This document shows positions 1,504 through 4,810 of a DNA stretch of 60,597 bases, one piece after another (position 1 is the stretch's first letter; each line of letters opens with the position of its first letter). The translations under genes were made by a program, and so were the position numbers. Source of the DNA: Bacteroidales bacterium (GTDB lineage: Bacteria > Bacteroidota > Bacteroidia > Bacteroidales > ML635J-15); contig JAQIBY010000043.1 in NCBI GenBank assembly GCA_027858835.1, forward strand, positions 1-60,597, written 5' to 3'. The notes below the pieces were generated by a model. The model was given only the letters and a program-made list of their open reading frames with translations. It did not search any database and had not been told where the DNA came from.

Positions 1504-1587
1504 GCCCAGGTGGCGGAATTGGTAGACGCGCATGGTTGTGGGCCATGTCCACGTTAGTGGGTGCAGGTTCGATTCCTGTTCTGGGCA
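1504..1587 (+). tRNA. Leucine-type class II tRNA with GUG (His) anticodon
   Basis: The body is almost identical to the tRNA-Leu(CAG) just upstream: acceptor GCCCAGG / TCTGGGC, discriminator A, the same D arm and T arm, and a long variable arm with stem CCAC / GTGG around GTTA. The anticodon stem is CATGG / CCATG and the 7-base loop is TTGTGGG, which makes the anticodon GTG. That would read histidine codons CAC and CAU. It lacks tRNA-His features: no G at -1 (the base is T), no C73, and it has a class II variable arm. Leucyl-tRNA synthetase does not generally rely on the anticodon, so leucylation is expected by inference. It could be an A35-to-U change of a tRNA-Leu(GAG), or a base error. Existence of the tRNA fold is certain; its decoding role is not. 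Confidence 0.9.
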
Positions 1588-1590
1588 CAC

Positions 1591-1626
1591 AAAAAGCCGA
1601 CTTTAGAAATAAAGTCGGCTTTTTTT
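1591..1626 (+). terminator. Intrinsic terminator after the tRNA genes
   Basis: AAAAAGCCGACTTT and AAAGTCGGCTTTTT form a stem of up to 14 bp around a 6-base loop, followed by a T run. The symmetric A and T flanks mean it could also stop transcription from the dnaX side. Confidence 0.9.
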
Positions 1627-3853: not shown

Positions 3854-4810
3854 CTATTTAAATGTTTTGGGATTCTGATGGTTTTTTATGCTATTTTCCA
3901 TTTCCTCTAAAATGCGTTCCATTGGATTATTTACATCAATCCAATGAATTTTATGTCCGTCTTTTTCCATTTTACGAAACCATGTCATTTGGCGTTTAGC
4001 GAATTGATGAATTGCTATTTCAAGTTTTGCTTGCATGCTGTTGTAATCAATTTGTCCTGAAATATACATGCCTAGAAATTTGTACTCCAGTCCGTAGTAG
4101 ATCATGTCATCTATACTAAGCCCGTTTTCGTGAAGTCGTTTTGCTTCATCAATTAAACCCTCATTTAAACGGATCTTAAGCCGTTCTGAAATTCGATTTC
4201 TACGTAATTCACGAGAAATATTTGTTCCGAAAATAATAGGTTTTATTTTCGGGATGCTGAGCGAAATTTCCGGATGAATTTTGTAATATTCCTGTATTTC
4301 GATTGCTCTGATTGCTCGTTTTTTTGTGTCAGTATCGCTGCGGTTGTGTTCTGATTTGTATTTGCTTAATATTTCTCGCAATTCTTCTAATGATTTTTCG
4401 TCTAAATCTTTACGGAGAGATTCGTTGACGGGGACATGCACCAGTTTATATCCTTTCAAAACCGCATCAATATACATTCCTGTCCCACCACATAGAATTG
4501 GTATTTCCCCCTTTTCTGTTAAGGATTTGAATACTTTAAAAAAATCATTTTGATATTCAAAGACATTGTATTTGTATCCCGGGTCAACAATATCAATTAA
4601 ATGGTAAGGAATAGTTTTGTTTCCAACTGTAAAATCGGCTAAATCTTTTCCGGTTCCGATGTCCATTCCACGATATACTTGCCTGCTGTCTGCGCTAATT
4701 ATTTCAGCATTTATATTTGCTGCGAGCTGTGCTGCAATTTTAGTTTTCCCACTGGCTGTGGGTCCCAAAATTACGATTAAGTTTAGATTTTCATTTGGTT
4801 GCAGTTTCAT
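3854..4810 (-). CDS. miaA: tRNA dimethylallyltransferase
   Basis: MiaA (318 aa) transfers a dimethylallyl group to N6 of A37 in tRNAs reading UNN codons. The P-loop GPTASGKT near residue 15, the following SADSRQVYRGMDIGTGK segment, HLIDIVDP and the GGTGMYIDAVLKG motif are hallmarks. YYGLEYKFLGMYISGQ and KRQMTWFRK in the C-terminal half match the tRNA-binding region. The length is typical. It is divergent from the Yip1-like gene across a strongly palindromic spacer. Confidence 0.97.
   Translation of the reverse strand: MKLQPNENLNLIVILGPTASGKTKIAAQLAANINAEIISADSRQVYRGMDIGTGKDLADFTVGNKTIPYHLIDIVDPGYKYNVFEYQNDFFKVFKSLTEKGEIPILCGGTGMYIDAVLKGYKLVHVPVNESLRKDLDEKSLEELREILSKYKSEHNRSDTDTKKRAIRAIEIQEYYKIHPEISLSIPKIKPIIFGTNISRELRRNRISERLKIRLNEGLIDEAKRLHENGLSIDDMIYYGLEYKFLGMYISGQIDYNSMQAKLEIAIHQFAKRQMTWFRKMEKDGHKIHWIDVNNPMERILEEMENSIKNHQNPKTFK

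Follow-up and report, generated by a model that had tools for sequence, protein, structure and literature searches.

A leucine tRNA gene with a histidine anticodon

The window, by which we mean the entire 60,597-nucleotide stretch of Bacteroidales DNA that was analyzed (contig JAQIBY010000043.1), carries a pair of tRNA genes on the forward strand. The first, at positions 1384 to 1467, encodes tRNA-Leu(CAG). The second, at positions 1504 to 1587 (tRNA positions 1 to 73), has the body of a leucine tRNA and the anticodon GTG. ARAGORN calls these genes tRNA-Leu(cag) at 1384-1468 and tRNA-His(gtg) at 1504-1588, and they score 53.9 and 50.9 bits, respectively, against the Rfam model RF00005, for which the cut-off is 29 bits.

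The second tRNA has a class II body with a long variable arm, A73, and leucine-type D and T arms, as the first-pass annotation had described. Also borne out by the sequence are its observations that both arms are identical to those of tRNA-Leu(CAG), 36 bases upstream, and that the anticodon stem-loop, CATGG-TTGTGGG-CCATG, is well formed. All seven pairs of the acceptor stem are present, one of them G7-U66. The anticodon bases G34, T35, and G36 occupy positions 1538-1540, and the odd base is thus T1539, one base downstream of the position (1538) assigned to it in the annotation. This T replaces the A35 expected of a tRNA-Leu. The resulting GUG anticodon is that of a bacterial tRNA-His, but the G-1 and C73 of that class are missing, with T at position -1 and A at position 73. 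Single-strand folding of the RNA predicts a long rod rather than a cloverleaf and was not used.

Upstream of the pair is a Bacteroidota promoter-like element, TTTG-N17-TATATTTG, read by eye at positions 1338-1366 of the forward strand. The TATATTTG box is also found upstream of the tRNA pair in G001, the sole other species of the genus in our comparison set. An intrinsic terminator-like hairpin lies directly 3' of the GTG tRNA (positions 1591-1624, forward strand), and similar hairpins also follow the orthologous genes in G001 and G005. By Pfam matches, the tRNA genes are flanked by the S18 gene on one side and dnaX on the other. Past dnaX, about 2.3 kb from the pair, a tRNA isopentenyltransferase gene (IPPT, Pfam PF01715) occupies window positions 3854-4810 on the reverse strand. 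A prophage or mobile origin was considered and rejected, given the position between the S18 gene and dnaX and the synteny of the S18 side with G001.

Orthologous genes in related genomes carry GAG

The corresponding block of G001 consists of the S18 gene, tRNA-Leu(CAG), and tRNA-Leu(GAG), and is syntenic with the pair in the window. The GTG tRNA differs from its G001 orthologue at four bases: anticodon base 35, base 7, and one base each in the D loop and the variable loop. Full-length orthologues in G001, G005, G029, and G046 are 91-95% identical to it (95% for G005, 94% for G029, and 91% for G046), which shows that the match is no coincidence, and all have GAG. Further genomes of the order likewise carry the orthologous tRNA with GAG, such that base 35 is A in all orthologues examined. 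Orthology of the GTG tRNA with tRNA-Leu(GAG) is clear. It shares with the tRNA-Leu(GAG) of Bacteroidota (RF00005) the body, A73, the long variable arm, the neighborhood, the promoter-like box, and the terminator, and differs in having U rather than A at position 35, which makes the anticodon GUG. The gene therefore carries a single anticodon change, absent in relatives, in an otherwise intact tRNA.

Two further origins were tried and rejected. Pseudogene decay does not fit a tRNA in which every stem is paired. Apart from base 35, this tRNA departs from that of G001 at one D-loop base, at one variable-loop base, and at base 7, where G-U pairing is kept. An assembly chimera with tRNA-Leu(CAG) or tRNA-His is not compatible with GGTTGTGGGCC, which is present in neither sequence.

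We consider it very likely that the GTG tRNA is the second gene of an ordinary Leu(CAG)-Leu(GAG) unit with one A35-to-U difference (T1539) private to this assembly, reflecting either a very recent mutation in the sampled strain or an error or minority base in the draft consensus, and that it is neither an established agent of mistranslation nor a converted tRNA-His. As the simplest alternatives, the first-pass annotation had named a base error and a recent A35-to-U mutation of tRNA-Leu(GAG), and the synteny with G001 matches both. The deliberate chimeric tRNA that it had also entertained is not supported: the anticodon is not conserved in relatives, and the gene sits in an ordinary CAG-GAG transcription unit. 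When the same GTG tRNA is sought in related genomes, a check that the annotation had proposed, the orthologues examined prove to have GAG; non-conservation, which it had named as counting against its idea, is what we observe.

A base error, or a minority variant that became the consensus in the draft, would mean that the gene in the cell has GAG and encodes an ordinary tRNA-Leu. We give this explanation close to an even chance. All but one base of the gene fits a functional tRNA-Leu(GAG), and the change is private to a single assembly of 184 contigs. Conversely, isolated single-base errors are rare at such genome quality. Moreover, no further damage is seen, in that the reading frame of rpoB is open and, with the exception of the tRNA-Gly(CCA) described below, the 37 remaining distinct tRNAs show nothing unusual.

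tRNA set and codon usage of the genome

A normal tRNA-His(GUG) with G-1 and C73 is present elsewhere in the genome, at G000:C81:72458, as the first-pass annotation had suggested checking. The same check for a tRNA-Leu(GAG) gave no recognizable second gene in the 184-contig draft; some tRNAs, for example tRNA-Phe, are missing from this draft, and thus a second GAG copy in a gap is conceivable. The remaining leucine tRNAs have the anticodons TAA, TAG, CAA, and CAG, and the syntenic position of tRNA-Leu(GAG) is occupied by the GTG tRNA.

The codons CUU and CUC together account for 28.7% of leucine codons in a sample of the genome, compared with 27.7, 28.2, and 28.4% in G001, G005, and G029. In rpoB their share is 48%, and CUC is enriched in this gene (26/112, or 23%, versus 338/3777, or 9%, in the genome sample; p = 8e-6). 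Usage equal to that of relatives, combined with this enrichment, indicates that a GAG tRNA was at work in this lineage until a short time ago. Undiminished use of CUU and CUC is also what a base error would leave behind. At conserved sites of rpoB, histidine is encoded by CAY in 14 of 15 cases, tryptophan by UGG in 7 of 7, and leucine by CTY in 36 of 85. The CAY counts led us to reject a recoding of CAY to leucine. The genetic code is standard, and adaptation to the anticodon change is not visible in codon usage.

The base could instead be real. A recent mutation would have cost the cell its tRNA-Leu(GAG) and supplied a leucine-charged tRNA that misreads histidine codons, a change that would be mildly deleterious or tolerated, and unselected. 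We regard this as a serious possibility, although somewhat short of an even chance. Leucine insertion, in competition with tRNA-His, at histidine codons, which make up 2% of all codons, should be costly, and the tRNA shows no attenuation, its stems being intact. On the other hand, loss of tRNA-Leu(GAG) may be bearable, as the distribution of this tRNA in the order indicates.

Rarity across genomes

A pattern search for leucine-body tRNAs in which position 35 is not A covered 782 distinct genomes, 393 from the order and 395 from the phylum, with some overlap. The tRNA in the window is the only true match; two other matches in the 782 genomes are not tRNAs according to ARAGORN. The lack of a second case in this set, together with the retained use of CUU and CUC and with CAY at conserved histidine sites, indicates that the change is very recent or is an error in the draft.

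Among 199 near-complete genomes from the order, 176 have a recognizable tRNA-Leu(GAG). In families f5, f42, f34, and f106, it was recognized in none of the two or three near-complete genomes sampled from each (G034, G152, G249, G071, G180, G273, G063, G176, G135, and G234). When a loose GAG pattern was applied to genomes without a recognizable tRNA-Leu(GAG), the matches listed were near the control rate. Absence of the tRNA from these genomes is thus likely, and suggests either lineage-wide loss in the four families or an unusual D loop. If these families do lack it, tRNA-Leu(UAG) alone may suffice and the loss need not be lethal, which favors a real mutation in the present case. In E. coli, CUU is decoded by both the GAG tRNA and the cmo5UAG tRNA (PMC6599085).

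A broader scan of GTDB 220 used one genome per species and a slightly too strict pattern that misses the tRNA in the window, and its counts are therefore lower bounds. At least six loci with a leucine body and GTG were found, five of these six being tRNAs, and all six come from genomes titled as metagenome-assembled genomes (MAGs), a circumstance consistent with base error. Three of the tRNAs (L070, L073, and L074) have A73, whereas those at L071 and L075 have G-1 and C73 and are surrounded by numerous other tRNA genes, an arrangement seen in large phages. The L070 tRNA (positions 165-248, from a Gemmatimonadota MAG) has A73 and G at position -1 and is an additional gene, in that its genome also has a normal tRNA-Leu(GAG). 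In the anticodon arm, the L070 tRNA is similar to the tRNA-Leu(UAG) of the same genome. The occurrence elsewhere of A73 leucine-body tRNAs with GTG, in this instance alongside a normal GAG gene, lends support to a real mutation. Taking these considerations together, we judge that the draft is about as likely to contain a base error or minority base as the strain is to carry a real, recent mutation.

Comparison with other tRNAs of mixed identity

In the assembly sequence, the locus resembles the alloacceptor anticodon shifts described by Rogers and Griffiths-Jones in 2014 (PMC3923123), in that a syntenic tRNA gene has acquired the anticodon of another amino acid through a one-base change. Position 35 is the most frequent site of such shifts (PMC3923123). 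Those cases occur mostly in many-copy eukaryotic families, with one in Enterobacteriaceae, whereas the gene considered here is a single-copy gene in a draft bacterial genome.

tRNA-ProX of Streptomyces and Kitasatospora (PMC11415595) likewise combines the body of one amino acid's tRNA with the anticodon of another, and mistranslation is predicted for it. By analogy, the GTG tRNA might have an established role in deliberately generating statistical proteins wherever histidine codons occur. The tRNA and its transcription unit are intact and leucine identity has been kept, which speaks for such a role. However, tRNA-ProX is conserved as an additional gene, has a dedicated synthetase, ProRSx, and carries the hallmarks A33 and A34 (PMC11415595), whereas the tRNA in the window has ordinary U33 and G34, is not conserved even within the genus, and replaces the normal gene instead of supplementing it. 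The Pfam-matched neighbors at the locus are S18, dnaX, and the IPP transferase, with no dedicated synthetase among them, and codon usage shows no adaptation. We consider a deliberate role of this kind quite improbable.

Phages offer a different apparent precedent, on which the tRNA in the window might have been remolded from a leucine tRNA into a true tRNA-His that is charged by HisRS. Such remolding seems to recur in phages, with 25 distinct leucine-body GTG tRNAs in viral contigs, and these share with the tRNA in the window a leucine-type D arm and the GTG anticodon. Base 73 differs, however. It is C in 21 of the 25 viral tRNAs, T in three, G in one, and A in none, and 14 of those with C73 also have G-1, while A73 is present in 82 of 89 viral leucine-body tRNAs with GAG. 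Several of the phage tRNAs lack the long variable arm, which is complete in the window. The window tRNA has A73 and T-1, compared with C73 and G-1 in the tRNA-His of the same genome. Conversion to a tRNA-His is accordingly the least credible explanation, and one to which we assign very little probability. From the phage comparison comes a rule that phage leucine-body tRNAs with a histidine anticodon have an altered base 73. Many leucine-body tRNAs with a histidine anticodon, C73, and often G-1 are found at viral loci L079-L107, as well as at L071 (6972-7060) and L075 (2390-2477). Judging from these sequences, phages have apparently converted tRNA-Leu to tRNA-His repeatedly.

Predicted behavior of the GTG tRNA

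In E. coli, leucine identity depends on A73 and on D- and T-loop contacts, and the anticodon is not an element; C73 abolishes leucylation of minimal tRNAs (PMC9976931). In bacteria, G-1 and C73 specify histidine identity together with the anticodon (PMC9976931). Should T1539 be real, retention of A73 and the lack of G-1 and C73 predict that LeuRS would charge the GTG tRNA with leucine and that HisRS would reject it. The charged tRNA would then compete with the normal tRNA-His and insert leucine at some CAC and CAU codons, and decoding of CUU and CUC would be left to tRNA-Leu(UAG).

Confirmation of the base would reveal a natural bacterial missense tRNA, inserting leucine for histidine in place of a single-copy tRNA, and would provide a test of how cells survive the loss of a cognate tRNA with simultaneous miscoding. 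More generally, odd anticodons in draft genomes should be compared with the syntenic orthologue, and bases -1 and 73 inspected, before chimeric decoding is claimed.

The A35-to-U change also creates U33-G34-U35, the sequence recognized by Tgt. As a putative Tgt target, the GTG tRNA might gain queuosine at G34.

A glycine tRNA with a tryptophan anticodon in the same genus

Both species of the genus have a tRNA with a glycine body (U73) and the tryptophan anticodon CCA, located at L025 1501-1572 (G000:C135:32813-32884) and L299 (G001:C310:1564-1635). Other examined members of this glycine tRNA family have CCC. A Gly(CCA) pattern with an extra D-loop base, which misses the CCA gene itself, returned only CCC among the matches listed. 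A normal tRNA-Trp is also present in addition to tRNA-Gly(CCA). The anticodon stem contains a mismatch that differs by species, A28-G42 in G000 and A29-A41 in G001, and thus selection may have been relaxed or the tRNA attenuated.

An anticodon found in both species is more than a lone base error can account for, and tRNA-Gly(CCA) is better supported than the leucine-body GTG tRNA. Its presence in both species indicates that real anticodon shifts occur in the genus, which keeps alive the reading of the GTG tRNA as a real mutation. Conceivably, the genus tolerates ambiguous decoding, with a glycine-body tRNA that reads UGG in both species and, here, a leucine-charged tRNA that reads CAU and CAC, yielding low levels of statistical proteins at tryptophan and histidine codons; we think this quite improbable. 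Near a contig end of the same genome, at G000:C171:55-84, a 30-base stretch matches the 3' end of tRNA-Gly(CCA) exactly and is possibly the attachment site of an integrated element.
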